Made by a program: the position numbers and the translations under genes. A DNA stretch of 64,000 nt, taken from contig NZ_JAUOTO010000008.1 in NCBI RefSeq assembly GCF_030546645.1, positions 186,001 through 250,000 of the forward strand. The letters run 5' to 3'. Of this stretch, positions 1 to 33,370 are shown in pieces (the first letter of the stretch is position 1; each line of letters begins with the position of its first letter). The DNA comes from Flavitalea plasmicola. GTDB taxonomy: Bacteria > Bacteroidota > Bacteroidia > Chitinophagales > Chitinophagaceae. The notes under the pieces were generated by a model. It had not been told where the DNA came from. It ran no database searches and saw only the letters and a program-made list of their open reading frames with translations.

Positions 1-3000
1 GGTCGAACTTTGTCGGTTTTTGTTCCTCCTGGCCGTATGTATAGACGTGCAGCCGGTCGGCTGCAAGGTGCCCTTTTTTAAGGGCTGACCCGGCGTTCTG
101 CAATACGATCAGAACATCGAACAGGGGGTTGCGGCTGATGTCTCTTTGGATGTGGAGATCATTAACCAGGTCTGCAAGCAGGTAGGGTTGGTGTTGGTAG
201 GCGTCCAGGGTTACCTGTCTGACTTTTCCCAGCAGGTCCAGATAACTGTCTTCTCCGCTAAACCGGGTCCTGAGTGCCATGATATTCATGTAATAGCCGA
301 CCTGATCTTCCAGCTCGATGTGCTCACGTCCGGCGATAGAAGTACCGACGACAATATCTGACTGGCCACTGTAGTAATAAAGCAGCGCGTTGACGGCGGC
401 CAGCAATCCCATGAACAAAGTGCCTCCCTGAAGATGGGCGAGCGTGTTCAGCTGACGGCTATTGGTCGCTTCCAGGCTGAGGCGGGTGAGAGCGCCATTG
501 AATGTCTTGACCTGTGGTCGCTGGCGGTCGTAAGGAAGCTCCAGCACCGGCGTTTCCCCCAGGAACTGACGCTGCCAGTACGATTGGTTGATCTTCCTGG
601 TCTCTCCCTCCTGCAGGGACTGTTGCCAGACAGCATAATCCTTGTATTGTATGCGTAATGGAGGTAGCGCATCCGTCTGTCCATGCAGGTACGCGTTATA
701 CAACGTTATCTGTTCGGACATTAAAATGTCCATGGACCATGCATCACTGATGATGTGATGTATGGTATAGACAAAGATCCATTTTTCATGGGCTACCCGG
801 CAAAGGCAGGCGCGGATGAGGGGGAATGCGGCAAGATCGAATGGAGCATGCAGGTCTTCCCGGATCAGCGCCTTCATTTTCCTTTCGGGCTCTTCTTCAT
901 GTGTCAGGTCGAGGCTGTGGATATGAAAGGAGATTGCGTCCTCCGGCAGGATCCATTGCCGCGGTTCATCCTCGTGGTCTTTGCGGATGACGGTCCGGAG
1001 TATCTCATGCCGCCTGATGACCATTCTGAATGCATGATCCAGGGCATCCTTTTGCAGGTCGCCTTCGAACACATAGACCTTTTGAATATTATAGGCGATA
1101 TTTCCTTCTTCGAACTGGCATGATATCCATACCAGGCGCTGGGCGGGCGCCAATGGGTAATGCGGGCCGGAAGGTGCGGGTGAAATAGCGATGAATGGTT
1201 CTTTCGCAGACTGTCTGAGCAGCTTTGCCTGGTCTTCCAGGACAGGGTTCAACAGCAGGTCTTTGATCGTGATGCGGACCCCGAGATCCCGGAGGATCAT
1301 ACTGGCCAGCCGGGTAGCTTTCAGGCTGTGTCCTCCGGACTCGAAGAAATTATCTTTTATGCCTATACGGTCTTTTTCCAACAGTTGCCGCCAGATGGAT
1401 ATCAGTTTTTCTTCCGTATCGTTACTTGGAGGCATATATCTGCCTGCGGCCGACAAGGCCAGTCCTTTTGGGTCTGGCAGGCGTCTCCTGTCCAGTTTCC
1501 CGTTGACCGTCAGGGGCAATTCAGGCAGGCGTACGAATACGGTGGGATGCATATACAGGGGAAGGTGTTGTTCCAGGTGCCTGTAAATCCCGGAGATATC
1601 CGGATCGTTGGCACTTACCAGGTAGGCCACCAGCACAGGTTCTCCATCGCTGCCGGGCTTTTCCGATACAGCCGCAGCTTCGATGCCCTCGCAGGCCTGC
1701 AGGACCTTTTCGACCTCGTCTGGTTCAATGCGATGGCCACGGATCTTTATCTGCCTGTCTTTCCTGCCGCAAAATTCAATATTCCCGTTAGGCAGCCATC
1801 TGCCCAGGTCGCCCGTCCGGTAAATCTTTTCTCCTTTACGAAAAGGATTATCAACGAATTTGGTTTGCATCAGCAGTGGGTTGTTTATATATCCCCCTGA
1901 TAGGCAATCTCCCCCGATACAGATCTCTCCGACGACCTTTTCAGGCAGCAGCTGCAGCTGATCGTCCAGGATATATACGGCGGTATTGGAGATTGGCCGG
2001 CCGATGTAGATACTGTCCATCTTAGTCTTTTCCGATGGCCGGACCACGGCGCCTTCGATCACTGCGGCTATAGCTTCCTGTTCTTCCAGTATTTCCAGCA
2101 GATGCCGGCGCGTGGTGTATGGGTTCATCAAGACCGCTCGCAGCATTACGGCAGGCGGTCCTTCCTGCATCTCGACCTCCGTGTAGGAAACGAAGGAATT
2201 GCCTGCTGCAAACTGGTGCTGCTGTATCTTTTTATTCAGATCATTAAGCGTTTGCGTCCCGGCATATCCGAATGATTTCCCTCGACGGAGATCCCGCAGC
2301 GGGAAGGGAATATACCTGTATAGGACGATGTTGAGGTCTGAGTGCCCGAATAGTTCGAAGGCTTCATTGTCGTTTATGAGTGCCCTGAACATTTGGGCTC
2401 TTTCATAGTTGGATTCGACGATGCCGGCGTAGCCTTCTTTGCCTATTATACTCAGGGCGCCGTGAAGAACGAAAGAAAGGAAGGGCCGGGAGCCTTCGAT
2501 GGTATAGCGGCCCAGGTCCTGGCTGCCTTTGCGGGCCTGATAACGTGCATTATTCTCGGAATATCGGGCCAGGGAAGGATCGCGGAAGAGGCATACACTC
2601 AATCCCATCGGGAGATACAGTTGTTTATGGCCGCAGATGGTAACTGAGTCGCCCATGGATATACCGTCCAGCTTATGCGAAAGAAGATCCGAGAACAGAT
2701 AAGCGCCGCCGAAGGCGGCATCTACGTGAAAATGCACCTGGCACTCCCTGGCGACGGCGCCCAGTTGCCGCAACGGGTCTACATTTCCGGTCTCGGTAAA
2801 CCCCGCAACGCCGATGATAGCAAGGACCAGCGCCCCTCCGGCCTTTTTCCGGCCAACCAGTTCGCGCAGGCCCGCTGAAGCTCCCGGGTCCTTCTTATCC
2901 AGCTCGAAAGGAATAAAGGCTTCCTCTCCCATGCCCAATATCCTGAGGGTTTTACCGATAGAGTAGTGGCATTTCGGGGACCCGATGACGATTGCTTCGG

Positions 3001-6000
3001 TATAATTATATGCAGCCAGCGCTGCGGCCAGCCCCTGCCTTGTCCAGCCCCGGAAGCCTTCTTTTTCCGGCAGCCGGCTTGCAAGGGCATAACTGAGAGC
3101 GGAGACATTCGACAAGGTACCTCCACCTGTGATAATGCCGAGGGCGCCGAAAGCATCTTCCGAACACCGCCGGTAGAATGCGTCCTCTTCCCTGTACACT
3201 GTCCGGTGAAGGCTGGCGATGGTTTGCTTTTCCAGCGAAGTGCCCAGGCCGGATGTTTCCACCTTTACCATGTTCTGGTTCCAAAGGTGCATCAATTTTA
3301 CCAGCTCGTTAAGCACGGGAGGGACAGGGCCGGTCATATGACCGATGAATTTGGGGGACGATACATTGACGATGCCTCCCAGCAAGGTATCTTTTACAAA
3401 AGCGGCATATTCCTCCGGTGAAGTCTTCCCCAGGTCCGGCAACTGGAAAGCAAAGGCATCTGTGAGCCCCGGTCTCCTCACGGATGTTCCGGAGGGTGCT
3501 GCGTCGCTGACGAGCAGCGCGAGTTCGCGGCCTACGCTTTCCCTGAAAAGCAAGGGAACGCCGCCGGTCATGTCCGTAATCCGCCCCCCTGCGGAAGTAT
3601 CATAGCAGGTGGCGTCTGCCGTCACTTCTGTCGAACCATAGATATTCAGCAGCCTGTGTCCGGGGAATACGTCATAGAACTTCTCTACCAGGGCGGCATC
3701 CAGCTTCTCTCCGCTGCAGGTCCATTCCCGGAGAGCTGACAGTTTGTTGCGGCAGGCTTCTTCATCCGAAAGCAGCTGCCGGAGCAGAGAAGGGACAAGG
3801 ACAATCCTGGTAACCTTATGAGCACAAAGGCTCGTCATGAAATGATCGGTATCGAGGACGTCCTGTTTGCTGAATATTACCAGGCGGATGCCTTTTAACA
3901 GCGGTCCGAATATCTCCCACAGATGGTCCACGAAGCTGATGGAGGTCTTCGCGGCACAAACTTCGTCTTCGTTGAAGGGGAAGGCTGCCCACATCCAATG
4001 CAGCCTGTTCTGCAGGTTCCTGTGCGAGATGGCTACGCCCTTGGGCTGACCGATGGAACCGGAAGTGTATATCACGGCGCATGGGTCGTCCGGCGCCGGG
4101 GGAAGGGCCGTACCTGAAAACGTTCCATAAGGCGTGGAGGTCCTGAATCGGCTGATCAGATCTGTATCGATGACCGTTCTGCAACCACTATCCCCGACCA
4201 TGTAGGCTATTCGCGAAGGCGGGTAACCGGGGTCGATCGGAACGTAGGCGCAGCTGTTCTTAAGGACGGCAAGAATGGCGATGATCATCCATTCGCTTCG
4301 CTCCATGCTGATCCCCACCCTATCACCGGGATGCACCCCGTATTCCGTCTGCAGACAACGTTGCAGTTGTCCTGACAGATCGTCCAGCTGCCTGTAAGAG
4401 AATGCACCGGCCCCGGATACCAATGCAATACGATCCGGCCTAGCCGCGGCCTGATCGAGGAAGAGCTGGGTAAGCGTGGCATCTTCCGGGTAGTCCATTT
4501 TCGTGTCGTTAAAGTTTACCAGGAGCCGGTGATGTTCTTCCGGCGTCAGGTAATCCAGGCCGTCCAGGACCACATCCGGATGTTCGACAGCGGCTTCCAG
4601 CAACTGCACGAAATGGTCAGCCATCTGCATGACCGTGCTCTTCAGATAGATATCGCTGTTATATTCTAGGCGGAGCTGGTAATCTTCTCCTTCATCGGAG
4701 AATTCGAAGGACAGGTCGAACTTGCTGCCTGTTTTCCGGCCCATGTCATATTTGCTGATCGAAAGGTCCCCTGCCGCCCTGTCAGCGGTGACATCGCGGT
4801 CCTTCGCATGCTGCAGGACCACCAGTACGTCGAACAACGGGCTGCGGCTTATATCCCTGCGCAAGTCGAGCGCCTGGGTAAGCTCGTCGAAAGGGTAATC
4901 CTGATGAGCCAGTGCTTCGAGGCTGACCTTCCGCGCTGTTCGCAGCAGGTCCCTGAAACTGTCTTGCCTGTTAAATTGCATTCTCAAAGCGAGGGTATTG
5001 ATATAATAGCCTATCTGGTCCTGCAGGACTTCATGATCCCTGCCTGCAACCAGGCTGCCCAGGATAATGTCTTGCTGGTGGGAATAGCGGTGTAATAAAT
5101 TGGCGACTGCCGCCAGGAATCCCATGAACAAAGTGGTGTTCTCTGTTCTGCCAAGGTGTTCCAGCCGGCGGATCAATGCAGCGCCAATGCATTTATGCAA
5201 TTTGTCGCCGTTGTACGTTCTTACGGATGGTCGCGTTTTATCTGCCGGCAATTCCAGCACGGGTAACGCTCCCTGGAGCTGCCGGAGCCAGTAATCCCGG
5301 TGAATGGCAAAGGCTTCGCTATTTACCATCCCACGTTGCCACGCTGCATAATCTTTGTACTGTATCCGCAGCGGCGCTCTTTCGTCCGGCGCACCAATTA
5401 CGGCCGCGTTGTAGGACTGCAGCAATTCCCTGATGAGGATATCCATGGACCAGCCGTCACTGATAATGTGATGCATGGTATAGGAGAATATCCACCGGTC
5501 AGCGGTAAGCTGGTAAAGGGAGGCTTTCAACAGGGGGCCGGCCGCCAGGTCGAAGGCGCGGCAGGCCGATGCACGGAGCATTGCGTTGGCCTGTTCTTCT
5601 GCATCCTGTCCGTACGCACGGAGGTCGTGGCAGTCTACCTGGTAACCCGCATCGTCCGAGGGGCGGATGTATTGCCGGATCTCGCCCTGATCATTAGACC
5701 GGAAGACGGTCCGAAGGCTTTCATGCCGTTCTATCAACTGCCGGAATGCGTATTCCAGGGCAGGCAAATTCAAACTTCCTTCGAATACGCAGGCTCCCGC
5801 CATATTATAAGCCACATTGCCTTCGGGGATCTGGCTCAGTATCCAGATCCTTTGCTGAGAAAAGGAGACAGCGTAGTCGGGCTGATATGCCACCAGGGGG
5901 ATATGATCATTCATCCGGAGATATTCCCGATGGGACCTGATAAAGGCGATGAGGTCCTGCCGGTAGTGTTTTATCTCGGCCAGGAGACCTTCATCCAGCA

Positions 6001-6088
6001 CCCCCCTGGGGGCCCGGATATCCAGCTGATCCCCCACGAGGTCCATGGAGACCCTGAGCTTCTTCAACCTATGATACAGATGTTCCAT
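1..6088 (-). CDS. NRPS (partial, 3' end outside window) with decarboxylase-interrupted beta-alanine module
   Basis: Fourth NRPS of the operon, 2029 residues visible; the frame is open to base 1, so the C-terminus lies outside. Start ATG (6088-6086) overlaps the TAA of the previous NRPS by one base. Domains: TubC-like docking domain (~1-55); condensation domain (~70-500; HHIISDG at 206-212); adenylation domain first part (~530-830; A3 TSGSIGQPKG at 675-684, A5 NIYGSTE at 815-821); inserted PLP decarboxylase (~831-1356); adenylation domain second part (from IGRP near 1362, ending NGKLDR); carrier domain (GGHSL, Ser1588); second condensation domain (1777-1783 reads HHIISDA, Ala for the usual last Gly), cut by the edge. 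Pocket residues by alignment to GrsA: V235 D236 W239 V278 T299 S301 I322 A330 D331, close to the known beta-alanine code VDWVISLADK. Inferred role: add beta-alanine as residue 8 of the peptide. No thioesterase or reductase is visible. Confidence 0.95.
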   Translation of the reverse strand, partial: MEHLYHRLKKLRVSMDLVGDQLDIRAPRGVLDEGLLAEIKHYRQDLIAFIRSHREYLRMNDHIPLVAYQPDYAVSFSQQRIWILSQIPEGNVAYNMAGACVFEGSLNLPALEYAFRQLIERHESLRTVFRSNDQGEIRQYIRPSDDAGYQVDCHDLRAYGQDAEEQANAMLRASACRAFDLAAGPLLKASLYQLTADRWIFSYTMHHIISDGWSMDILIRELLQSYNAAVIGAPDERAPLRIQYKDYAAWQRGMVNSEAFAIHRDYWLRQLQGALPVLELPADKTRPSVRTYNGDKLHKCIGAALIRRLEHLGRTENTTLFMGFLAAVANLLHRYSHQQDIILGSLVAGRDHEVLQDQIGYYINTLALRMQFNRQDSFRDLLRTARKVSLEALAHQDYPFDELTQALDLRRDISRSPLFDVLVVLQHAKDRDVTADRAAGDLSISKYDMGRKTGSKFDLSFEFSDEGEDYQLRLEYNSDIYLKSTVMQMADHFVQLLEAAVEHPDVVLDGLDYLTPEEHHRLLVNFNDTKMDYPEDATLTQLFLDQAAARPDRIALVSGAGAFSYRQLDDLSGQLQRCLQTEYGVHPGDRVGISMERSEWMIIAILAVLKNSCAYVPIDPGYPPSRIAYMVGDSGCRTVIDTDLISRFRTSTPYGTFSGTALPPAPDDPCAVIYTSGSIGQPKGVAISHRNLQNRLHWMWAAFPFNEDEVCAAKTSISFVDHLWEIFGPLLKGIRLVIFSKQDVLDTDHFMTSLCAHKVTRIVLVPSLLRQLLSDEEACRNKLSALREWTCSGEKLDAALVEKFYDVFPGHRLLNIYGSTEVTADATCYDTSAGGRITDMTGGVPLLFRESVGRELALLVSDAAPSGTSVRRPGLTDAFAFQLPDLGKTSPEEYAAFVKDTLLGGIVNVSSPKFIGHMTGPVPPVLNELVKLMHLWNQNMVKVETSGLGTSLEKQTIASLHRTVYREEDAFYRRCSEDAFGALGIITGGGTLSNVSALSYALASRLPEKEGFRGWTRQGLAAALAAYNYTEAIVIGSPKCHYSIGKTLRILGMGEEAFIPFELDKKDPGASAGLRELVGRKKAGGALVLAIIGVAGFTETGNVDPLRQLGAVARECQVHFHVDAAFGGAYLFSDLLSHKLDGISMGDSVTICGHKQLYLPMGLSVCLFRDPSLARYSENNARYQARKGSQDLGRYTIEGSRPFLSFVLHGALSIIGKEGYAGIVESNYERAQMFRALINDNEAFELFGHSDLNIVLYRYIPFPLRDLRRGKSFGYAGTQTLNDLNKKIQQHQFAAGNSFVSYTEVEMQEGPPAVMLRAVLMNPYTTRRHLLEILEEQEAIAAVIEGAVVRPSEKTKMDSIYIGRPISNTAVYILDDQLQLLPEKVVGEICIGGDCLSGGYINNPLLMQTKFVDNPFRKGEKIYRTGDLGRWLPNGNIEFCGRKDRQIKIRGHRIEPDEVEKVLQACEGIEAAAVSEKPGSDGEPVLVAYLVSANDPDISGIYRHLEQHLPLYMHPTVFVRLPELPLTVNGKLDRRRLPDPKGLALSAAGRYMPPSNDTEEKLISIWRQLLEKDRIGIKDNFFESGGHSLKATRLASMILRDLGVRITIKDLLLNPVLEDQAKLLRQSAKEPFIAISPAPSGPHYPLAPAQRLVWISCQFEEGNIAYNIQKVYVFEGDLQKDALDHAFRMVIRRHEILRTVIRKDHEDEPRQWILPEDAISFHIHSLDLTHEEEPERKMKALIREDLHAPFDLAAFPLIRACLCRVAHEKWIFVYTIHHIISDAWSMDILMSEQITLYNAYLHGQTDALPPLRIQYKDYAVWQQSLQEGETRKINQSYWQRQFLGETPVLELPYDRQRPQVKTFNGALTRLSLEATNSRQLNTLAHLQGGTLFMGLLAAVNALLYYYSGQSDIVVGTSIAGREHIELEDQVGYYMNIMALRTRFSGEDSYLDLLGKVRQVTLDAYQHQPYLLADLVNDLHIQRDISRNPLFDVLIVLQNAGSALKKGHLAADRLHVYTYGQEEQKPTKFD
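2021..3598 (-). other. PLP-dependent (PanP/GAD-type) decarboxylase domain inserted in an adenylation domain
   Basis: In-frame insert of about 525 residues (~831-1356 of the NRPS) between adenylation motif A5 and the IGRP segment before A6. It has the features of group II PLP decarboxylases: a PanP-like N-terminal signature (SSPKFIGHMTG, His917), a glycine-rich ITGGGTLSN segment, HVDAAFGG with the cofactor-pairing Asp1123, and GHKQLYLPMG with the Schiff-base lysine Lys1155. Its length fits a whole decarboxylase, not a fragment, and all the expected cofactor residues are present. The family includes glutamate decarboxylase and the PLP-type aspartate 1-decarboxylase PanP, which makes beta-alanine from aspartate. 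Because the surrounding adenylation domain has a beta-alanine-like code, aspartate 1-decarboxylation is the likely reaction. This is inference: glutamate or another acidic amino acid cannot be excluded from sequence alone. Confidence 0.93.
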
Positions 6089-9560: not shown

Positions 9561-12500
9561 TTATAATCTTATTATCTCCCTTGTCTCACTGACAGCAGCT
9601 GCATGCAGCCACGATTCGTCCGCCCACAACTTCTTTTGGATTTCCTGTGCAAGCTTGCGGACAGTAGGATGTTGAAATATATCCATCAGGGTGATATTCA
9701 CGCCGTACTCTTTTTTGATCTTATTGACCAGGGAGGTCGCTTTCAGACTGTGACCACCCAGGTCAAAAAAGCTGTCATCGACGCCGATCTTTTCTTTTTG
9801 CAGGACCTTATGCCATATTTCCGTCAGCCCGATCTCCATGTCGGAGGACGGCGCTACGTACTCCCCACGGGCATCCAGCTTCACGCCCGGATGCGTTACC
9901 AGCGCCTTCCTATCGATCTTGCCGTTTTCCAGCAGCGGGATCTTATCCATCTGTACGAAATAGGACGGCAGCATGTAATCGGGTATCTTTTGTTGCAGGA
10001 ACCCGCGAACCCCAGCCACGTTGAGCGCGTTTTTACAAACAATATAGGCCACCAGGCATTTTTCGCCGGCACTTTCCGGGCCCGAACGCCGGGCGTTGCT
10101 CTCCAGGAGAACAGCTGCTTCTTCAACGCCATCATAACCCAGCAGCATATTTTCCACATATCCGGTCTCGATGCGATAGCCCCTGACCTTCACCTGGTCG
10201 TCAGTCCTTCCGAGGACTTCCAGTGTTCCGTCCGGCAACCATCTGGCCAGGTCCCCGGTCCTGTACATAATATTCCCATTCTCAAATGGATTGGGGACGA
10301 ACCGTTCTTCGGTAAGCGCCTGTTTGTTGATGTAACCTCTGCATACGCCGTCGCCGCTGGTATATATCTCTCCGGTCACGCCCACCGGGTTGAGGCGGCG
10401 ATAAGGAGAAAGCACGTAAATGCGGGTATTCCGGACAGGCGTGCCTACCAGGACGTTGGACGAGGCATAAGGATTGGGTATCCGGTAAGACACCGTGACA
10501 TCAGACGATTCCGTCTGTCCATAGGTGTTTATAATTTCCAGATGAGCATTCCCGGCATAACATTTATTGACGAAATACGGACTCAGTTTTTCACCTGTAA
10601 GTATGAGCGTCCTGAGCCAGGGGAGGTACAAATGTTCTTCGTGTACCAGGTATTCATTCAGCTGGGAAGGGATCAGTTCCAGGACTTTTGCTCCGGACGA
10701 TCGGCTTAATTCGAACAGCCGGCCGATGTCTTTCATTTCCTTCTTATTGCATAACGTCACGGTGCCCCCCACAGTCAGCGGCGCCCACAATTGCCATATC
10801 CCACCTACGAAATGCAGCTCCGAATTATGGCATATCATGCATCCTTCTTGCAACTGCAGCAAGTCCAGCTTGCTGAACAGGTGATTGACGACGCCCTTGT
10901 GTTCCAGCATACAGCCTTTCGCCCCTCCTGTGGACCCGGACGTGTAGATAATATAGGCGAGGTCGTGCGAACTGCCCGCGGGCGCCATATCTGTCGTATC
11001 ATAATGCTGTGCCTGTGACAGAAAACGCTGCAGTTCGTCTTCATCGATGATAGCAGTGCATTTGCAGTCATCGGTGATATATTCGATCCGGGCGGGCGGG
11101 TATTCATTGTCCACAGGCACGCAGGCACCCCCGGCTTTCAGGACTCCCAGCATTGAAATGACCATCCATTCATTCCTATCCAGGATGAGCCCTATCCTGT
11201 CATCGGATTTGACGGCATACGTCTCTTTCAGGTATGCGCACAGTCGGTTGGCCATCTCATTCAGCCAGCGATAGCTATAGGTCTTATTTTCAAACACAAG
11301 CGCCGTAAGCTCCGGCGTGCGGGCTGCCTGCTGTTCGAAAAGTGACACCAAAGTGGCCGCTCCCGGATAGGGTCTGGCCGTATCATTGAATTCCGTCAAC
11401 ACCTGCAGCTTCTCCGGGTCAGGGAGGTAGTCCAGCATACCCACCGGCTGGCGGGGCTCATCGATGAGGGCGGAAGACAGCTGTATAAGATGGCCTGCCA
11501 GCCTTTGGATCGAGGACTCGTCAAATATATCCGTATTGTATTCGATGGAGGTTTGCAATCCGTCCCCGGTCTCTACGAAATCGAAGGTCAGATCGAACTT
11601 GCTGCTGGCGTGGATAATGTCTTCGTAGGGAGTTATCTTCAATTCATGTATCTCTCCGAGCGCTGCGGAATCATCTGCCCGGTGGTTTTGAAGGATAACC
11701 ATCACGTCGAACAGGTTGCTCCTGCTGACATCGCGCCGGATATCCAGGTCTCGTATCAGTTCGTCGAAAGGATAAGACTGGTGGGCAAAGGCCTCCAGGG
11801 TCATTTTCTTGACATGCTGCAAGAGCTCCAGGAAGCTGTCGTCGCCTGAGAATTTTGTTCGCAGCGCCAGGGTGTTGACGTAAAATCCGATCTGGTCTTC
11901 CAGGTCTACGTGATCTCTTCCGGCAACGGGACTGCCGATGACAATGTCTGTTTGGCCGGAGTACCGGTAGAGCAGGGTGTCGATCACGGCGATCAGCGTC
12001 ATGAAAAGCGTTGCGCCCTGTTGAAGGGCGATAGCCTGTAATCCTGTCAATATTGCCGGCGGGATCGTTCTCCGTATGGTATTGCCGTTATAGGTCTTTA
12101 CTGCGGGACGTGCTCTGTCGCCGGGCAGTTCCAGCACCGGCAATTCGCCTGCGAACTGTTGCAGCCAGTAGTTCCGGTGCGCCAGGGCATCAGCTCCCTG
12201 TAGCAATTGCTGCTGCCAGAAAGAATAATCTTTGTATTGGATAGGCAACGGGGCCGGCCTGATGCCCGTGCCCGATGTATAGTGTTTGTAGAACAACAAC
12301 AGTTCACGGATAATGATCCCCGTGGACCAACCGTCACTAACGATATGGTGCAGGGTATAACTGAATACCCATTTATCGTCCAGGAGCTGCAGGAGGCAGG
12401 CTCGTAGCAGAGGTCCGGCTGCCAGGTCGAAAGGTGTTGCGAGCTCCTCCTGTATGAACTGGCGGGCGAGCTCTTCTTTGCCGTCACTGGTGCGGAGGTC

Positions 12501-15500
12501 CCTGTACCGGAGTTTGCCCCCCATTGCCGAAGGAAGGCAGATGAATTGTCCTGTTTCTCCCTGGCTGTCGGTGGTGAATACCGTACGCAGGATCTCATGC
12601 CTGTCGATAAGCTGTTGAAAAGCATATTCCAGGGCTTGTACGTCAAGCCTGCCTTCGAAAACATATACGCCGGGGATATGGTAGGACTGTTGCCCTTCTC
12701 CGAACTGATCCAGCAGCCACAGCTGACGCTGAGAGGCGGAAAGAGGGTAATATTCCATGGCAGGGGCCGGTCTGACAACGGCGAAAAGATCGCTTCCGCG
12801 GTGGTCCAGCAAACGAGCCAGCGCTTCTATCGTGGGATGAAGAAAGACTTCCCTGATCGGAAGCAACTGTCCCAGTTCACGATGCACCCGGTTAACCAGC
12901 GTACCTACGGATAAAGAATTAGCGCCCAGTTCGAAAAAATTATCCCTGATACCGATATCATCACGACGGAGAATAACCGCCCATATGGATGCCAGCTTCC
13001 GTTGAACGTCCGTGGTGGGGGCGATGTTGGCTGAAGCGTTAACGTCCTCCCTGGCCGGCGGCGAGGGCAATGCCGACCTGTCGATCTTACCGTTGCTGTT
13101 GAGAGGGATGGCGTCCATCCGGACATAGAGAGCAGGGATCATGTACGACGGAAGTATCGCCCTGAGGTAGGTATTAACCGCTTCCCTGTCCGGCTCCTCC
13201 TCCGTCACCAGATAGGCACAGAGCTGGTTATTGGCGGCGTTTTTGTATACGCTGACGATAGCGTCCTTTATGCCCGGGTATTTCAACAGGATGCTTTCTA
13301 TTTCTCCCAGCTCCACTCTAAACCCGTTGATCTTTACCTGGAAGTCCTTCCTTCCCAGGAATTCCATATTTCCTTCGGGCAGCATCCTTCCCAGGTCGCC
13401 CGTTTTGTACATCCTTCCGCCGAGGCGGGTGTTGAATGGGTCTGCCTTGAAAGAGGCGGCCGTCTTTTCCCCGTCATTGGCATATCCCCGGGCTACCCCT
13501 ACCCCACCTATATACAGCTCTCCGGTAACGCCTTTGGGCACAGGGCGGAGCCGGTCGTCCAGGATATAAAAATAGTTATTACGGATGGGGCGTCCGTACG
13601 GGATACTGCTCCACCTTGGTCCCACCTGCCCAATGGGATAATAGTTCGACCACACGGTGCCCTCTGTTGCTCCCCCCAGGCTTATCACCTGCGCCTGCGG
13701 GAAATATTTGCGTATGCGGTCGGGCAGTTGTACAGGTATCCAGTCTCCGCTGAGGAACACCAGGCGCAAGTCTGTCTGCCGGTGTTCTGTCGCTTCTTCT
13801 TCCATTTCACCGACCAGGAAGTTCATGGTGGTTGGTACGGAATCCCAGAAAGTGATCCGTTCCTCGGTCAGCATCTTTTTCAATCGCATCACATCCTGCA
13901 CTTCTTCACGCCGCCCGATGACCACTGTGCCGCCTGCGGCCAGGACGCCGAATATATCATATACCGACAGGTCGAAGCATATCGATGTTATAAATAACAA
14001 CCTGTCGTCATGCCCGACATTGAATGTTTCGTTGACCCACTCTATAAGGTTGACGGCGGAATGGTGTTCGATCATTACTCCTTTGGGACGTCCTGTGGAC
14101 CCCGACGTATAGATCGTATAGGCCAGCTGCCTGCTGTCGATGTGGAGCCCTGGGTTGCCGCCGGTCAGTTCTTTATACCTATCCGCGGGCGACAGCCCTT
14201 TGCCGGTATGTACGACCCGGAGGGCGCTGTCCGAAGAAGCTGCCGCCTGTTGTATCAGCGGATATTCATCATCGGTAACAAGCGTAGTTACACCGGAATT
14301 GGACAGGATATATTCCTGGCGCTCTACGGGGTAGTCCGGATCAATGGGGACATAGGCGCCGCCGGCTTTCAGGATGCCGTACAAGCCGACGATCATGCCG
14401 AAGCTCCTTGAAGCGAGCAGCCCTACGGAATGGCCCGGTCGTACTCCCTGGTCTATCAGATGCCTGGCCAGCCGGTTGGCTTGCTCATTCAACGCTCCGT
14501 AGGTAAGCTCCCGGCCATCCTGGCGAAGCGCTATTCCACCGGCGAATACGGCCGCCTGTGCCTCCAATAGTCCGTGCAGTGTCTTATTGCTGCCATAAGG
14601 TGCCTCGGTGGCATTGAAAGCAACCAGCACCTCGGTGCGCTCCGGCGTTGTCAGGAGGTCCAGGGAGCCGATGGGTTGCCTTACGTCCCGGACGATCTGT
14701 TCCAGGATGCGCTCATACAGGCTGGCCGCATAATCCACCTCTTCTTCCCGGAAATAAGCAGGTGCATATTTTATCTTTATTGTAAACTTGTCCAGCGTTT
14801 TATCCACTTCTACATCGAAAAGTGTATTGGTCATCTCGTTGGCAACCTCCATATTCGATATTTCAGGGTCCGCAAAGGAGCCTTTTAGAGAAAGGTTTTC
14901 GTATGTATGAAAATCCGTAAAGTTCAGGATCGTATCGAATATGGGGTTAGACGAAGAGGTCGTATCACCTATGATGCGGGATATTTCGCTGAGGTGGACC
15001 TCATATGGTCTCATCCCCGCCAGGTAATCGTCGGCTTGCTTCAACAGGGAAAGGAGGTCCGTCAGTTCTCCTACATTCATCCGGATGGCAACTGTATTCA
15101 GGAAACATCCCATGATCTTCTCGCCGTCTTCCAGCTCGGGCCGGTCATGGGTCACGACTCCTGTGACGACGTCTTGTTCCGAGCAGATAATATGCATCAG
15201 GCAGACATGCGCAGCTACACACACCGATTTAATGGACAGGCCATGATCCAGGGCTACCTGCCTCACGTCAGCCAGGAGCGCATCCGGCAGCATGTGCGTG
15301 ACCCGTCTCATTCCCGTCTCCCCGCAAATACGCAATCCTTTATAATTAAAAGGCAGCTTATTGCGTGTGTAGCCTTTCAATTTCCCTTTCCAGTAGGCTT
15401 CTACGTCCGCAGACCGGTCTCTGCCGAGCTGCACGGCGCAATAATCCTTATAACTGTGCGCCAGGGGCGGCAGCTCCTCTCCGGTGTAGTTCGCAAGGGC

Positions 15501-18500
15501 TGTTTTGAATACAGATACGCTCCAGCCATCCAGGAGGGCGTGGTGGAAGCTGTAGGTAATATGATATTCGTCCGTGTCCAGGCGGAAAAGGTTCACCCGC
15601 CATAAAAGGTCGCCGTCGAAGCTAAGGCGCCGATCGAGATCTTCCCGGATATAATCGTTGATCCTGGTGATCTTCTCTTCTTTTGAGAGGCCGGACAGGT
15701 CTTCATAGACCAACGGCACTGTTATTTCCTGTAAAACAATTTTCAAAGGTGTGTTGAACCTGCTCATGTAGTACACTGTCCGAAGAATAGGATGGCGTTG
15801 GACCAATTTATGGATTGCCGCAATAAACCGGTCTTTGTCTTCGATGTATATCCTATAGGAAAACTGATCGTAATACACAGGCTCTTCCGGGTTGAGCAGC
15901 GAGGAATAGATCATGCCTTGTTCTATCGGCACCATGGGATAGATATCTTCATATTGTTCAGGTAGCTGATGGAGCTCCCGGTCTTTTTCTTCCATCTGCT
16001 GCCGGATCGCATGGATCTTCTGCAGGCCGGACTGGTGATAATCCGCGATCAGCTTCTTAGTGCCGGTGAGGTCATCGGTGCCGGATTCCTGCAAAGCGGA
16101 CAGGAAAGCAGCCACTTTTTCCAGTGTCCTGAGCTCATAGAGCTTGTCCAACGGTAATTCGAGTCCCAGCAATTTATTCACCTTCACAACGAACGTGATG
16201 GCCCTGATAGAATCTCCACCCAGGGAGAAGAAGTTATCGTCCAACCCTATGCGTGACCGGCCCAACAGTGTTCTCCATTCTTCCGACAATCGTATCTCCA
16301 GGTCGCTGAGCGGAGGCCGGTAAGCGGGTTCCTGTCCTGCCAACGGCAGCTCTGCCAGTTTCCGGCGGTCGGTCTTCCCGTGTGCTGTCAATGGCAGGGC
16401 CGATACGCGTATATATGTTTCCGGTACCATGTAGCCCGGCAGTCTCCTCGCCAGCAGGCTTTGAATATTTTCCTGATCCCACGCATCGGATGTCACCACA
16501 TAGGCCACCAGCTTCCGGCTGCCGCTGCGGTCCGGCGCAGCCACTATGGCTGCCTCGTGTATGCCTTCCACTCCGAGCAATGCCTCTTCTATTTCGCCGG
16601 GCTCGATGCGGTAGCCCCGGATCTTTACCTGGTCGTCCAGGCGCCCCATGTATTTTACACGGCCGTTTGGCAGCCATTTACCTCTATCGCCTGTCCGATA
16701 TAACCGGCCTTCCCCGAAGGAGTGCTGTACGAACCGCAACGCCGTTTGTTCCTCTTTTTTCCAATAACCAAGGCCTACGCCCATTCCTCCGATGCATATC
16801 TCTCCCGGCACACCGATGGGGCACAAGCTATTCCCTTCATCCAGTATATATATCTGCGTTCCGAAAATGGGCTTGCCGATCAATACCTCCTCGCCCTCTT
16901 CCAGTTCCTGCACCATGCAACCGACCGTCGTTTCGGTAGGGCCGTATTCGTTGTATATCCGCATGCTGCCGTTGATACCGCGAAGGATGCCCACTAACTC
17001 CGGGGTCACTTCTTCTCCTCCCAGGATCACACAATGTATTTTCTCCGAACGCAGCTCCATGGCTTTCAGGAGGCGTACATGCGAAGGGGTCAGCTTTACA
17101 GAACAGACTTTCCCCTGGCCTTCAAACATATCCCGCAGCACTTGCGGCAGGTCTGCGTGATGATCATAGATGGTGAGGACGGCTCCCCGTGTCAGGGAGC
17201 AGAACAGACTTGTTACCGTCAGGTCGAAGGACAGTGAAGTAAAGAGACCGAAGTGCGATTCTTCCGCGGTATGGAAGTAATAATTATTCGCCCACTGTAC
17301 ATAGGCTGACAAGTTTCCCTGGGTGATGGCACAGCCTTTTGGACGGCCGGTGGACCCGGAGGTATACAGAACGTAGGCCAGTGCGTCGGGTGAAGTGGAT
17401 GCAGGCATGGGGGCCGGCTCTTCCTCCTGTTGCAACAGGTCCACGGCAAGGATCGTCCCATCATACCATGACAATTCCAGCAGCATGTCGGCCTGTGCAA
17501 GCAGCACTTTTATTCCCGTATCCTCCACCATGTATCTTTTCCGCTCTTCGGGATATTCCAGATCGATGGGGACATAGGCGCCGCCCGCCTTTAGTATCCC
17601 CCAAATAGCGACCACCATATCGATAGACCGCCGCATCAGGATGCCGGTCAACCCGACCGGCGCTGGCGCCAGGTGACGTCGCAAGGCCGCTGCCAATTGT
17701 TCTGACCGCCCGTCCAGCTGAGCATACGTGAGACGGTCTTCTCCGCAGATCACGGCAGTGGCGTCCGGCGATCGCCGGACCTGGTCCGCGAACAAGGATA
17801 TTACAGGTCGGTAACCGTCATAGTTGGCCGTGGTCAGGTTGAAATCTATCTGCAGCCGGCGCTGCTGTTCCCTGTCGAGGTACGGCAGCCGGCTGATGGG
17901 CAGTCGGGGCGCAAGGAGTACAGCGTCCATCAATCCTGAAAAATGTGTATGAAGGCGTTCGATCGTCTCTTTTGCATACAGGTCGCTGTTGTATTCAAGT
18001 CCCAGGGTCAGGCCATCGCCAGCATCGGTGAACATGAATGTCAGATCAAACTTGCTTACCGTCTGACCTACCATATCATATGGCTTCACGGCTGCCTCTC
18101 CCATATAACGGATCTTCGACAGGCTGCTGTTGTCATGAAAGTCGATGAATACATCGAAGAGAGGGTGACGGCTTGTGTCACGAGGCAGCTGGATGTCGTT
18201 CAGTATCTGGTCAAAGGGATAATCCTGGTGACTATGCGCTTCCCGCATTGTCTGTCTTACCAGTTCCAGTATTTTCAAAAACCCATCCTCTCCCTGAAGC
18301 CTTGTTCGCAAAGGCAGCGTATTCAGGTATAGCCCGATCTGGCTCTCCAGCTCTGGACGGTTCCTGCCCGCCACCGGACTTCCGATGATGATATCTTTTT
18401 GACTGCTGTACCTGTATAAGAGGATATTGACGATGGCCAGGAGTCCCGTGAAAGGGGTTGACCCATGGCCTGCGACAAGGGCGGTAAACTGTTCCCAACT

Positions 18501-19418
18501 GCGCTTTTCAATCGTCCGGTGAAGGATACCGCCATTATGGGTCCTGACTGAAGGACGCTGCTTATCGACAGGAAGTTCCATCACCGGGAGCTCACCGTCC
18601 AGCTGCTGGCGCCAATAAGCCCGCTGGGCTTTATACCTATCCAGGCTTATCTGCGTCTCCTGCCAAACAGCAAAGTCCTTATATTGTATTTGCAGCGGAG
18701 GGAGATCAAGGGCTTTGCCGTTCATGCCGGCATCATACAGTGACAACAGCTCGTTGACAAGGATACCCATGGACCATCCGTCGCAGATAATGTGCGGCAT
18801 CACGCAATAGAGGGCCCATTTATTTTCCGACAGGCGGATCAGGCCCGCCCGGAGCAACGGACCATGATGCAAATCGAAGGGTTTGTTATAATCTTCCCGC
18901 AACGCACGGACCAGCATGGCGTCCTGGTCCGGTTTGTTTTGGAGATCACGTTGCGTGATATGCCAGTCCATTTTTTCCAGGGTAAGGACCTGTTGACGGA
19001 TATCTCCTTTGTCGTCCGGTCGGAAGACGGTCCTGAGACTTTCATGGCGATCCATCAGCCGATGGAAGCAATCTTGCAGGAGCTGGGGATCCATCCGACC
19101 TTCCAATAAATAAGCCTGGGGCATATTATAGGCAGCGCTGCCCAGTTCAGACCGGCTTGCCAGCCATAATCTCCGCTGGGCGGCAGACAAAGGATAATCC
19201 TTCCGGTCCGGCGCAGGAAGTATGACGTCCTGGGGGCCTTCTCCCGGATTGCCCGGGCGGGTATTGGCCAGGTAGTGGATCAGCTCATCCTTGCGCTGCC
19301 TGATCTCGGAGATCAGTCCTGCATCGACGTTTCCCTGTTCCGCGAACACTTTCAGGTTTCCGTCCACTACCTCCAGCAGGATATTGTTATCCCGTATATC
19401 TTCTAATAGCTTTTTCAT
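9561..19418 (-). CDS. NRPS, three modules (docking-C-A-T-C-A-T-C-A-T)
   Basis: 3285 residues. A TubC-like docking domain (~1-55) precedes three modules. Module 1: condensation domain with PHIICDG (Pro208 replaces the first His; the catalytic His209 is kept), adenylation code D-L-T-K-I-G-E-V-G (Asn-like), carrier LGGDS (Ser1070). Module 2: condensation domain with HHALLDG (1292-1298), adenylation code D-L-Y-D-F-S-L-V-W with a GGATEG A5 motif (closest to Cys, DLYNLSLIWK), carrier with LGANSL (Ser2168) where GGHSL is usual. Module 3: condensation domain with HHIVSDG (from 2357), adenylation domain with A5 TYGQTESSD and code V-G-W-E-I-T-T-D-V, which I cannot match, carrier LGGHSL (Ser3224). No epimerisation domain is seen. 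The ATG overlaps the TGA of the upstream NRPS by four bases. Inferred role: residues 4-6. Confidence 0.96.
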   Translation of the reverse strand: MKKLLEDIRDNNILLEVVDGNLKVFAEQGNVDAGLISEIRQRKDELIHYLANTRPGNPGEGPQDVILPAPDRKDYPLSAAQRRLWLASRSELGSAAYNMPQAYLLEGRMDPQLLQDCFHRLMDRHESLRTVFRPDDKGDIRQQVLTLEKMDWHITQRDLQNKPDQDAMLVRALREDYNKPFDLHHGPLLRAGLIRLSENKWALYCVMPHIICDGWSMGILVNELLSLYDAGMNGKALDLPPLQIQYKDFAVWQETQISLDRYKAQRAYWRQQLDGELPVMELPVDKQRPSVRTHNGGILHRTIEKRSWEQFTALVAGHGSTPFTGLLAIVNILLYRYSSQKDIIIGSPVAGRNRPELESQIGLYLNTLPLRTRLQGEDGFLKILELVRQTMREAHSHQDYPFDQILNDIQLPRDTSRHPLFDVFIDFHDNSSLSKIRYMGEAAVKPYDMVGQTVSKFDLTFMFTDAGDGLTLGLEYNSDLYAKETIERLHTHFSGLMDAVLLAPRLPISRLPYLDREQQRRLQIDFNLTTANYDGYRPVISLFADQVRRSPDATAVICGEDRLTYAQLDGRSEQLAAALRRHLAPAPVGLTGILMRRSIDMVVAIWGILKAGGAYVPIDLEYPEERKRYMVEDTGIKVLLAQADMLLELSWYDGTILAVDLLQQEEEPAPMPASTSPDALAYVLYTSGSTGRPKGCAITQGNLSAYVQWANNYYFHTAEESHFGLFTSLSFDLTVTSLFCSLTRGAVLTIYDHHADLPQVLRDMFEGQGKVCSVKLTPSHVRLLKAMELRSEKIHCVILGGEEVTPELVGILRGINGSMRIYNEYGPTETTVGCMVQELEEGEEVLIGKPIFGTQIYILDEGNSLCPIGVPGEICIGGMGVGLGYWKKEEQTALRFVQHSFGEGRLYRTGDRGKWLPNGRVKYMGRLDDQVKIRGYRIEPGEIEEALLGVEGIHEAAIVAAPDRSGSRKLVAYVVTSDAWDQENIQSLLARRLPGYMVPETYIRVSALPLTAHGKTDRRKLAELPLAGQEPAYRPPLSDLEIRLSEEWRTLLGRSRIGLDDNFFSLGGDSIRAITFVVKVNKLLGLELPLDKLYELRTLEKVAAFLSALQESGTDDLTGTKKLIADYHQSGLQKIHAIRQQMEEKDRELHQLPEQYEDIYPMVPIEQGMIYSSLLNPEEPVYYDQFSYRIYIEDKDRFIAAIHKLVQRHPILRTVYYMSRFNTPLKIVLQEITVPLVYEDLSGLSKEEKITRINDYIREDLDRRLSFDGDLLWRVNLFRLDTDEYHITYSFHHALLDGWSVSVFKTALANYTGEELPPLAHSYKDYCAVQLGRDRSADVEAYWKGKLKGYTRNKLPFNYKGLRICGETGMRRVTHMLPDALLADVRQVALDHGLSIKSVCVAAHVCLMHIICSEQDVVTGVVTHDRPELEDGEKIMGCFLNTVAIRMNVGELTDLLSLLKQADDYLAGMRPYEVHLSEISRIIGDTTSSSNPIFDTILNFTDFHTYENLSLKGSFADPEISNMEVANEMTNTLFDVEVDKTLDKFTIKIKYAPAYFREEEVDYAASLYERILEQIVRDVRQPIGSLDLLTTPERTEVLVAFNATEAPYGSNKTLHGLLEAQAAVFAGGIALRQDGRELTYGALNEQANRLARHLIDQGVRPGHSVGLLASRSFGMIVGLYGILKAGGAYVPIDPDYPVERQEYILSNSGVTTLVTDDEYPLIQQAAASSDSALRVVHTGKGLSPADRYKELTGGNPGLHIDSRQLAYTIYTSGSTGRPKGVMIEHHSAVNLIEWVNETFNVGHDDRLLFITSICFDLSVYDIFGVLAAGGTVVIGRREEVQDVMRLKKMLTEERITFWDSVPTTMNFLVGEMEEEATEHRQTDLRLVFLSGDWIPVQLPDRIRKYFPQAQVISLGGATEGTVWSNYYPIGQVGPRWSSIPYGRPIRNNYFYILDDRLRPVPKGVTGELYIGGVGVARGYANDGEKTAASFKADPFNTRLGGRMYKTGDLGRMLPEGNMEFLGRKDFQVKINGFRVELGEIESILLKYPGIKDAIVSVYKNAANNQLCAYLVTEEEPDREAVNTYLRAILPSYMIPALYVRMDAIPLNSNGKIDRSALPSPPAREDVNASANIAPTTDVQRKLASIWAVILRRDDIGIRDNFFELGANSLSVGTLVNRVHRELGQLLPIREVFLHPTIEALARLLDHRGSDLFAVVRPAPAMEYYPLSASQRQLWLLDQFGEGQQSYHIPGVYVFEGRLDVQALEYAFQQLIDRHEILRTVFTTDSQGETGQFICLPSAMGGKLRYRDLRTSDGKEELARQFIQEELATPFDLAAGPLLRACLLQLLDDKWVFSYTLHHIVSDGWSTGIIIRELLLFYKHYTSGTGIRPAPLPIQYKDYSFWQQQLLQGADALAHRNYWLQQFAGELPVLELPGDRARPAVKTYNGNTIRRTIPPAILTGLQAIALQQGATLFMTLIAVIDTLLYRYSGQTDIVIGSPVAGRDHVDLEDQIGFYVNTLALRTKFSGDDSFLELLQHVKKMTLEAFAHQSYPFDELIRDLDIRRDVSRSNLFDVMVILQNHRADDSAALGEIHELKITPYEDIIHASSKFDLTFDFVETGDGLQTSIEYNTDIFDESSIQRLAGHLIQLSSALIDEPRQPVGMLDYLPDPEKLQVLTEFNDTARPYPGAATLVSLFEQQAARTPELTALVFENKTYSYRWLNEMANRLCAYLKETYAVKSDDRIGLILDRNEWMVISMLGVLKAGGACVPVDNEYPPARIEYITDDCKCTAIIDEDELQRFLSQAQHYDTTDMAPAGSSHDLAYIIYTSGSTGGAKGCMLEHKGVVNHLFSKLDLLQLQEGCMICHNSELHFVGGIWQLWAPLTVGGTVTLCNKKEMKDIGRLFELSRSSGAKVLELIPSQLNEYLVHEEHLYLPWLRTLILTGEKLSPYFVNKCYAGNAHLEIINTYGQTESSDVTVSYRIPNPYASSNVLVGTPVRNTRIYVLSPYRRLNPVGVTGEIYTSGDGVCRGYINKQALTEERFVPNPFENGNIMYRTGDLARWLPDGTLEVLGRTDDQVKVRGYRIETGYVENMLLGYDGVEEAAVLLESNARRSGPESAGEKCLVAYIVCKNALNVAGVRGFLQQKIPDYMLPSYFVQMDKIPLLENGKIDRKALVTHPGVKLDARGEYVAPSSDMEIGLTEIWHKVLQKEKIGVDDSFFDLGGHSLKATSLVNKIKKEYGVNITLMDIFQHPTVRKLAQEIQKKLWADESWLHAAAVSETREIIRL

Positions 19419-31726: not shown

Positions 31727-33370
31727 TTATGAGGTTGTATATTCATACAATGACGACAGCTGCTGAATCTCGAACATACGTCCGCTATCCATCTTATACA
31801 GCTTATCTGCATATTGATAATAATTGTCGTCATGAGTGATCGCTATCAATGTAAATCCTTCCTGTTTGATATATCCAATGATCTCTTTATAGAACTTCCT
31901 TTTGAAGTGCGGATCCTGATCTGCCGCGAACTCGTCGAGAATGAGGACAGGTTTCTTTTCGAGCATGGCATAAATGAGGGCTAACCGCTTTCTTTGACCG
32001 GTAGAAAGATTGATATCCGAAAATCCTTGCCTGTTTACAGTCACCTTCCCGTCGATCTCAAAAAGCTTCAGATATTCGTTGGCTTTCTCCAGGTCGACCT
32101 CCGGCAATCCGTAAAACTCGTCGAACAGGTGACAGTCGCTGAATACGGGTGCGAACTGAAGTTTATAGCATTTCAGGTGTTCCTGTTTTATGGACAGACC
32201 GTTTACAAAGACTTCTCCTTCATCCTGCCGCAGAAGGCCTGTAAGAATATTAATAAAAGTTGTTTTTCCGCTGCCATTGCCTCCGCTGATAAAGATCGCC
32301 TGTCCTTTGGAGATCTGGAAATCAACAGGGCCGACGGAAAAAGGTTTGTCCTGACCGTCAGTTTCTTCGGGAATATAGGTGAAGGCGATGTCTTTCAGTT
32401 CCAGCCGGTGGAAATCGCCGGAAAATGTGATTTCTTCCGCGGCTGTATTGCCGTTTACCTGGTCTTCCAGGTCGTTTATCCTTCTCAGGGAGGCCCGGGC
32501 CTGGGAAAGATTGGGGATCAACAGAACTACCGTCTCGATGGGACTCCAGGTATACAGTAACAGGAATATAATATTAACGAGATTGGCTTTGTCGACGCTG
32601 AACAAATCACCCAGGAGCAACAATATGAGCCCAATAAAAATGTAGAAGGCAATCTGACCTATCACGCGGTTGATCAGGAAGCTGACCTGGGCTTTTTGAT
32701 TCAGGACGGAGGACGCATTTATTGACCTGTGAATGTGTCTTTCCGATATTTCTGCGCCTTTAATGGGGGCTATATTTATTTCTTTAAAACCCCTTATTAC
32801 TTCATTCAGGTATTTTATGAAGATGTCATTCTGCTCAAGCGCCAGCTTGAATAATCGCAAGGCTTTGCGGGCACAGAAATAGTAGATCACCAGGGTGAAC
32901 AGGATCAGCCCTACGACACAAACCAGTAGCTTCCAGGATAATACAGCCATATAAATCAGGCAGATCACCACCACCAGTATATTCGTGATGATGTCCACCA
33001 CATTAATAGAAGCGTTCACTATGTTATTGGTGTCGTTTGTCAGGGTGGAAAGGATCCTGCTCTTATTCCTTTCCAGTACGGCCAGCGGCGAGCGCAGGAT
33101 CATCTTCAATATTTCGATCCTGGTCTGTTTGAGGAGATGCTGGGTGAACCGTATAATGCCTATTGCCACCAGCCACCTGCATAGGACAAACGAGCATACG
33201 GAGCCCACGAACATAAACAGATACATTCGTGTGCCCGACTGGGTCCGTGTGACATAATCGTGTATGATTAGGTTGATCGTGTACAGAACGCCTATATTAC
33301 CCAGGGCGGACAGTATACTCAACACTGAAAAATAGATGTATTTATTCCAATTCCCCTTGCTGATGTTCAT
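31727..33370 (-). CDS. SyrD/PvdE-type cyclic peptide ABC exporter (fused membrane and ATPase domains)
   Basis: 547-residue half-transporter. The N-terminal membrane domain (~1-300) has about six hydrophobic segments. The ATPase domain (~330-547) has Walker A GGNGSGKTT, signature LSTGQRKRLAL and Walker B VLILDEFAADQDP followed by an FKRKFY segment. LSTGQ in place of LSGGQ and the DEFAADQDP Walker B are typical of the SyrD/PvdE family that exports NRPS peptides (syringomycin, the pyoverdine precursor ferribactin). It most likely moves the finished peptide across the inner membrane. It sits 29 bases after the FkbM gene and upstream of the acylase, in line with export followed by periplasmic processing. 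Confidence 0.93.
   Translation of the reverse strand: MNISKGNWNKYIYFSVLSILSALGNIGVLYTINLIIHDYVTRTQSGTRMYLFMFVGSVCSFVLCRWLVAIGIIRFTQHLLKQTRIEILKMILRSPLAVLERNKSRILSTLTNDTNNIVNASINVVDIITNILVVVICLIYMAVLSWKLLVCVVGLILFTLVIYYFCARKALRLFKLALEQNDIFIKYLNEVIRGFKEINIAPIKGAEISERHIHRSINASSVLNQKAQVSFLINRVIGQIAFYIFIGLILLLLGDLFSVDKANLVNIIFLLLYTWSPIETVVLLIPNLSQARASLRRINDLEDQVNGNTAAEEITFSGDFHRLELKDIAFTYIPEETDGQDKPFSVGPVDFQISKGQAIFISGGNGSGKTTFINILTGLLRQDEGEVFVNGLSIKQEHLKCYKLQFAPVFSDCHLFDEFYGLPEVDLEKANEYLKLFEIDGKVTVNRQGFSDINLSTGQRKRLALIYAMLEKKPVLILDEFAADQDPHFKRKFYKEIIGYIKQEGFTLIAITHDDNYYQYADKLYKMDSGRMFEIQQLSSLYEYTTS

Follow-up and report, generated by a model that had tools for sequence, protein, structure and literature searches.

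The analysed window comprises 64,000 nt of Flavitalea plasmicola (contig NZ_JAUOTO010000008.1, positions 186,001-250,000), and all window coordinates refer to this stretch. At its beginning lies a nonribosomal peptide synthetase (NRPS) gene in which a pyridoxal 5'-phosphate (PLP) decarboxylase resembling PanP is inserted into an adenylation (A) domain. The gene occupies a single minus-strand frame (6088->2) encoding 2029 aa within the window without a stop or frameshift; on the flanking contig the frame runs past the window edge to window position about -235, for 2114 codons from stop to stop. The domain order is TubC_N, condensation (C), N-terminal part of the A domain, A(N), PLP decarboxylase, C-terminal part of the A domain, A(C), carrier (T) and C. 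In the list below, residue conservation refers to an alignment of 87 PanPs (67 free, 20 embedded in A domains), and pocket positions are numbered after GrsA.

2..6088 (-), NRPS gene with the interrupted module; extends beyond the window start; the frame stays open along this contig to about -235
5936..6082 (-), TubC_N docking domain, residues 3-51 (Pfam PF18563, 31 bits)
4520..5884 (-), condensation domain, residues 69-523 (Pfam PF00668)
3593..4483 (-), A domain, N-terminal part up to A5, residues 536-832 (Pfam PF00501 at 545-832; structure model)
3914..3937 (-), A4 pocket segment SFVDHLWE; V720, D721 and W724 presumably correspond to GrsA 235, 236 and 239
3614..3637 (-), A5 segment GSTEVTAD; A824 and D825 presumably correspond to GrsA 330 and 331
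2021..3598 (-), inserted segment, residues 831-1356, about 525 residues
2069..3448 (-), PanP-like PLP decarboxylase domain, residues 881-1340 (TIGR03799, PF00282; Foldseek 4rj0, TMt 0.73)
2966..2968 (-), His1041, kept in 67/67 free and 20/20 embedded copies
2720..2722 (-), Asp1123, kept in 67/67 free and 20/20 embedded copies
2624..2626 (-), Lys1155, kept in 67/67 free and 20/20 embedded copies
2540..2542 (-), Tyr1183, in a low-confidence loop, kept in 67/67 free and 20/20 embedded copies
1469..2020 (-), A domain, C-terminal part with IGRP and A6-A10, residues 1357-1540 (AMP-binding_C Pfam match 1458-1531)
1217..1411 (-), carrier (T) domain with GGHS, residues 1560-1624 (Pfam PF00550, PP-binding, 41.9 bits)
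2..1165 (-), next condensation domain, from residue 1642, end beyond the window

As in other interrupted A domains, A-domain motifs flank a foreign catalytic domain on both sides within one open reading frame (ORF). A sequence-only reading of the window had placed a decarboxylase at 2021-3598, between motifs A5 and A6 of one uninterrupted frame, and this is borne out: the interval equals residues 831-1356 and fits the insert, the frame is open, and the domain search it called for matched AMP-binding (545-832), Pyridoxal_deC (899-1259) and AMP-binding_C (1458-1531). The distance from YGxTE (A5) to IGxP is 540 residues, versus 17-19 in five uninterrupted A domains of the window, namely those of its seven other A domains in which both motifs were found. 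The insert starts at residue 831, after the last pocket residue (D825 in A5, position 331) and before the moving C-terminal subdomain, also as proposed from the sequence. G+C makes up 0.557 of the insert, 0.560 of A(N) and 0.531 of A(C)-T. A single-chain AlphaFold model of residues 534-1632, built on the alignment of 20 fusions (mean pLDDT 78.7), has predicted strands directly before (model residues 291-297) and directly after (830-841) the insert, and a model of the Moorena member (mean pLDDT 74.7) has the same order of elements; since pTM is 0.53 and 0.52, respectively, the relative placement of the domains is not reliable in either. Both folds, A domain and decarboxylase, are kept in the predicted models of the two members, which answers the structural check suggested with the initial observation. 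In a Foldseek search the window model aligned to whole A domains across the insert, including EntF, LgrA, GrsA and 4d56 (TMt 0.86), with TMt of 0.69-0.70 for 1amu and 0.45 of 870 residues for the interrupted A domain 5wmm, and the PLP decarboxylase 4rj0 appeared at rank 50 with a TMt of 0.73. The predicted A-domain fold is continuous across the insert. Because the insert lies in a short loop after A5, neither the N-terminal core nor the mobile C-terminal subdomain (A8-A10) should be hindered in its work.

The insert matches Pyridoxal_deC (PF00282) at residues 899-1259 with 108.1 bits versus a cut-off of 27. Its best NCBIfam model is PanP, TIGR03799 (residues 881-1340, 427.7 bits, E 5e-128), followed by a model with 92.8 bits, and its identity to five free PanP copies aligned is 36-38%. 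His1041, Asp1123, Lys1155 and Tyr1183 are invariant in 87/87 aligned PanPs; Asp1123 and Lys1155 are located where the initial observation had put them. We take these residues to be the PLP-stacking histidine, the partner of the PLP pyridine nitrogen, the Schiff-base lysine and the loop tyrosine, respectively. Tyr1183 aligns to a Tyr of 4rit that is Gln in 4riz, and the title of 4rj0 describes a Y333N mutant. Among the 99 columns conserved at 95% or more in the 67 free PanPs, the window insert keeps 92, and the 19 other embedded copies keep 91.6% on average. The seven departures include W1126F, R1002L and N1003A, which are also found in other embedded copies, and A1146G, which is found in none. 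In five pairs of relatives, the ratio of nonsynonymous to synonymous substitution rates (dN/dS) is 0.05-0.13 for the embedded domain and 0.05-0.25 for the A-domain halves; one of the pairs (L053/L093) is saturated with dS >1, two pairs share L044, and the window has no close pair. The pattern in these pairs is that of purifying selection on the embedded domain, similar to that on the A domain. The insert therefore has the sequence features of a complete group II PLP decarboxylase of the PanP type, and it is apparently active.

The same architecture recurs in other genomes, where the sequence-only reading had suggested looking for it. When an alignment of six PanPs (the window insert and five free copies) was scanned against 84,980 species genomes, at least 589 stretches were obtained, of which 537 were confirmed and the best 80 analysed. 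Among these best 80 PanP relatives, 19 are embedded in ORFs of >700 aa and 61 are not in such ORFs. All 20 long-ORF cases, window included, have the order A(N)-PanP-A(C)-T at one site, and 19 of the 20 have a C domain upstream, the exception being L053, whose contig starts inside the A domain. The carriers are Chitinophagales, Pedobacter steynii, Saprospirales, two Tenacibaculum, Flavobacterium, two Aquimarina and two Flavobacteriales metagenome-assembled genomes, as well as Acaryochloris, Moorena, Richelia, Mastigocoleus, Plectonema, Hyella, Cyanothece, SAR324 and Thiomargarita. Embedded copies are thus spread over Bacteroidota, Cyanobacteriota, Thiomargarita and SAR324, several carriers being metagenome bins. 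Because these 19 other loci come from separate assemblies and share the same domain order at the same site, the architecture is more than chance. In even samples it is rare, found in one of 118 relatives, one of 395 genomes sampled from the phylum of the window (E<=1e-40) and one of 292 from that of L041 (E<=1e-80), each time the seed genome itself. Some match was present in 60 of the 118 relatives (own genome included), the best other E being 4.5e-35, and no match of another genome among the 118 lay in an open frame of >755 aa. A single-sequence scan of genome contigs with the window insert alone gave 37 pattern matches, none of which was confirmed. Whole genomes were searched for ten fusion carriers (from 11 of the 19 fused loci, L038 left out) and for L035. 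In all ten carriers the embedded copy is the sole PanP-type match at E<=1e-40, and the L035 genome has one free copy.

The substrate pocket of the interrupted A domains is distinctive. It was read by alignment to LgrA and other A domains at GrsA positions 235/236/239/278/299/301/322/330/331. The window code is V235 D236 W239 S278 T299 S301 I322 A330 D331 (VDWSTSIAD), joined by the Lys of A10. The 20 interrupted A domains all read V-D-[WAV]-[ST]-[TIF]-S-[ILV]-A-D and keep that Lys. Asp235 is found in 17 of 18 uninterrupted A domains (11 from fused loci and seven from the window), the remaining one reading VG; one of the 18, L028_plain1730, aligns poorly. We take the code of the interrupted domains to be close to the beta-alanine code of bleomycin synthetase. 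The idea, already put forward from the sequence, that the module makes its own building block beside the activation site is supported by this common code, and also by the same A-domain type occurring uninterrupted beside free PanP genes.

Free PanP copies adjoin NRPS or polyketide synthase (PKS) genes in Mycetohabitans, Paenibacillus and cyanobacteria. An A-domain match is present in 38 of 68 free-PanP loci, and 32 loci have A domains reaching A5, 52 domains in total, two of which yield incomplete codes. Codes beginning with VD occur in 18 of the 52 A domains and in 14 of the 32 loci, and these A domains are uninterrupted. In a tree, a branch with support of 99/95 sets 14 other A domains apart from a group made up of the embedded ones and 19 that are uninterrupted (18 VD, one ID). 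In eight cyanobacterial loci (L076, L095, L074, L064, L069, L103, L024, L107), an A domain with the code VDWSISLAN lies ~7.5-8 kb downstream of the free PanP, and L064, L074, L103 and L107 have a second VD domain, ending in Asp331, ~2-5 kb upstream. Asn at position 331 may mark a related beta-amino acid.

Chitinophaga sp. YR573 (L035) carries both parts separately in one cluster, an uninterrupted A domain (L035:3902-5365) with exactly the window's code VDWSTSIAD and, ~4.1 kb further, a free PanP (L035:7920-9413). This PanP groups with the embedded PanP of L030 in a quick tree (96 SH-aLRT), and the L035 A domain groups with that of L030 (85/73, not starred). The pair has the look of a fusion since split, although it may instead represent a pre-fusion state. 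A tree that includes the A domain of L035 rejects a single fusion origin for the 20 fused A domains (p-AU 0.003). In a second tree, without L035 and eight other rows, one origin is not rejected, the fused domains lying on one side of a branch with weak support (77/54). The PanP tree needs five changes of state, by a quick method and with long branches. As the single-origin tests disagree, we claim neither one origin nor several. L034 and L036 have free PanPs inside embedded groups of the PanP tree, with no A domain in the fetched stretches; they are possible further separated copies. The PanP of L025 is split over two frames, and its longer piece alone was used in the tree.

Enzymes inserted into A domains are well known. 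According to the available text of two reviews, methyltransferases, oxidases, monooxygenases and reductases are inserted mostly at a8-a9 and sometimes at a2-a3 (PMC11355689, 2024; PMC8949500, 2022). The sites named in the sequence-only reading agree with this (PMC11355689), and they are not matched here, the insert lying between A5 and A6 in 20/20 copies. TioS, TioN, KtzH and MarQ (methyltransferases), EpoB and IndC (oxidases, Ox) and PchE (epimerase) likewise have a catalytic domain within the A domain and motifs on both sides, in the portions of the sources at hand (PMC11355689, PMC8949500, PMC8795117, PMC8807600). The known inserts described there lie at a8-a9, at a2-a3 or in the C-terminal subdomain, in contrast to A5-A6 here. 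A further Ox insertion site is given for BmdB, 1534/1535, in 13 proteins (PMC8795117, as far as available). Known methyltransferase inserts are described as acting on the loaded residue, whereas the PLP decarboxylase would make the residue before activation. Glycine A domains interrupted by a monooxygenase (MOx type; myxothiazol, melithiazol and some corallorazine-like clusters) also have an insert other than a methyltransferase. In the accessible part of the source, that insert is a monooxygenase in glycine-recruiting A domains (PMC11342130), versus a PLP decarboxylase here. The string 'decarboxyl' is absent from the main text of both reviews (PMC11355689, PMC8949500). The initial observation knew of no characterised precedent; that part stands, as no description of an amino acid decarboxylase embedded in an A domain was found in the literature searched (subscription papers and supplements lay outside its scope), but the window is not a singular case, the architecture recurring in at least 19 other genomes. 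As far as seen in these partly available sources, the class of insert is new and so is the A5-A6 site, BmdB 1534/1535 standing outside the motif comparison.

Among decarboxylases, PanP (TIGR03799) is the best family and has the same catalytic residues, the window copy differing in being embedded and below the equivalog cut-off. CrpG of cryptophycin biosynthesis is free-standing. It, too, provides an NRPS with a beta-amino acid, which it forms by removing the alpha-carboxyl of 3-methylaspartate, and its reported identity is with pyruvoyl-dependent PanD, not with PLP enzymes (PMC7459860, available text). Since CrpG resembles PanD, it was dropped as a same-family precedent. The bacillamide decarboxylase acting with BmdB and BmdC likewise prepares an NRPS substrate and is described, in the text at hand, as part of a three-protein system, not embedded (PMC8795117).

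From the domain order, the kept catalytic residues and the pocket code, we infer that the module probably makes beta-alanine from aspartate and activates it. The embedded PanP-type enzyme would take the alpha-carboxyl off free L-aspartate, the surrounding A domain would adenylate the beta-alanine product, and the beta-alanyl adenylate would be transferred to the module's own T domain, so that the module would be fed from a common proteinogenic amino acid and not from the pantothenate pool. PLP decarboxylases of this fold are homodimers, with the active site at the interface, so that the insert probably joins two copies of the module into a dimer.

Several observations weigh against this assignment. 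The window domain, with 427.7 bits, is below the TIGR03799 equivalog cut-off of 606.1, as are 8/8 other embedded domains scored (368.8-518.4 bits; these eight of the 19 were scored as segments, with matches starting at profile positions 55-77); for comparison, the free L035 copy scores 436.1 and a Vibrio copy 973.4 bits. Because the cut-off is unmet, the sequence does not certify aspartate specificity, and the insert is PanP-like, short of a certified PanP. The beta-alanine reference code was not found in a literature text search. No VD code is present in the fetched stretch of 18/32 free-PanP loci, so that the link between this code and free PanP is partial. Two of the three NCBI-named PanP loci that give a code, L022 and L027, have no VD code, the third (L023) reading VDTSISFGD. 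Position 331 is Asn in 8/18 VD codes, and the loci are not independent, since many are related cyanobacteria. The host has a normal PanD, as do 3/3 other genomes checked (L029 and L031 with the fusion, L035 without). Beta-alanine should accordingly be available without the insert, which is unneeded for pantothenate and whose benefit would lie in local supply, in direct transfer or in both. According to the accessible text of one review, methyltransferase inserts do not take free substrates (PMC11355689). Dimerisation is not a given either, because IndC with its inserted Ox is described as a monomer (PMC8795117) and PchE as dimerising through its Cy domain and A core, not its insert (PMC8807600), in the parts of these papers at hand.

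One alternative is decarboxylation on the carrier: the A domain would activate the beta-carboxyl of aspartate, and the insert would remove the alpha-carboxyl of beta-aspartyl-S-T to give beta-alanyl-S-T. The position of the insert within the A domain recalls the methyltransferases said to act on loaded substrates (PMC11355689, available text), and a code without the usual Asp235, with Asp at 236 and 331, is compatible with beta-linked aspartate. We nevertheless regard this route as unlikely, given that A domains of a similar type occur without interruption next to free PanP genes, that PanP is named aspartate 1-decarboxylase of pantothenate biosynthesis, that is, acting on free aspartate, and that the PLP site would presumably need to admit the phosphopantetheine arm. 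No more probable is another substrate, such as a substituted aspartate (e.g. 3-methylaspartate), glutamate or cysteine sulfinate, yielding a substituted beta-alanine, gamma-aminobutyric acid (GABA) or hypotaurine. It would fit the scores below the equivalog cut-off, the solved relatives, which include glutamate, cysteine sulfinate and diaminobutyrate decarboxylases, and the conserved positions altered in the window, W1126F, R1002L, N1003A and A1146G among them. PanP is, however, far ahead as the best family (427.7 versus 92.8 bits), and the pocket code is like that of A domains beside free PanPs, though most of the latter are unscored on the PanP model.

That the insert has lost catalysis and serves as a dimerisation or structural scaffold seems very improbable. 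The Ox domains of EpoB and BlmIII are said, in the available text, to be likely contributors to dimerisation (PMC8795117), and PanD in the host would suit such a role; against it stand the four catalytic residues, present in 20/20 copies, the conserved columns, 92 of 99 of which are unchanged in the window, and a purifying selection that, in relatives, resembles that acting on the A domain. An assembly join, chimera or chance fusion could be suspected from the window's own genome being the sole carrier among the 118 relatives and, at E<=1e-40, the 395 phylum genomes. The same site and order in 19 other assemblies of distant taxa refute it in substance, and the frame has no stop, frameshift or composition break; its probability is negligible.

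Beyond aspartate decarboxylation with activation of beta-alanine, the loci may, more tentatively, represent a new class of self-supplying NRPS modules. In these, an embedded PLP enzyme would make the building block and hand it to its host A domain, working either on free aspartate with site-to-site transfer or on carrier-bound beta-aspartyl, with the insert holding a dimer together; such a fusion would be old, mobile as a unit across phyla and separable into two genes (cf. Chitinophaga sp. YR573). If true, this would be a different logic from that of the embedded partners in the available text of the two reviews, which are tailoring enzymes, with methyltransferases acting after activation. For engineering, A5-A6 would add one more natural place at which to insert domains. 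What embedding gains, be it supply, transfer or dimerisation, can be examined by comparing the embedded set with the A domains left uninterrupted beside free PanP and with the Chitinophaga sp. YR573 pair. In uncharacterised clusters, the combination of pocket code and PanP may, in addition, point to beta-alanine positions.

The surrounding cluster, which also has a PKS module, contains a second interrupted A domain. It lies on the same contig (L110:10766-17038 (-), window about -9134 to -2862) and has a Bac_luciferase domain (149.8 bits) between A4 and A5, that is, of the MOx type. A 665-codon ORF at L110:17737-19731 (-) shows a luciferase-like monooxygenase (170.6 bits) after an N-terminal stretch that is A-domain-like by eye; Pfam finds no A domain in this ORF, which is possibly a degenerate A-MOx. 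An Asp/Glu racemase gene (PF01177, 85.6 bits) is located at L110:16983-17846 (-), ~2 kb downstream of the fusion gene. The third A domain of the gene at window 9561-19418 (-) is uninterrupted and has the unusual code VGWSITTDV, without Asp235; it possibly takes another non-alpha-amino acid. Upstream of the NRPS genes, a penicillin-amidase-type acylase (481 bits, window 29173-31536 (-)) may remove an acyl group from a peptide precursor. Near it are an ABC transporter (31727-33370), an FkbM methyltransferase, a glycosyltransferase and a NusG-like protein (35318-35839).

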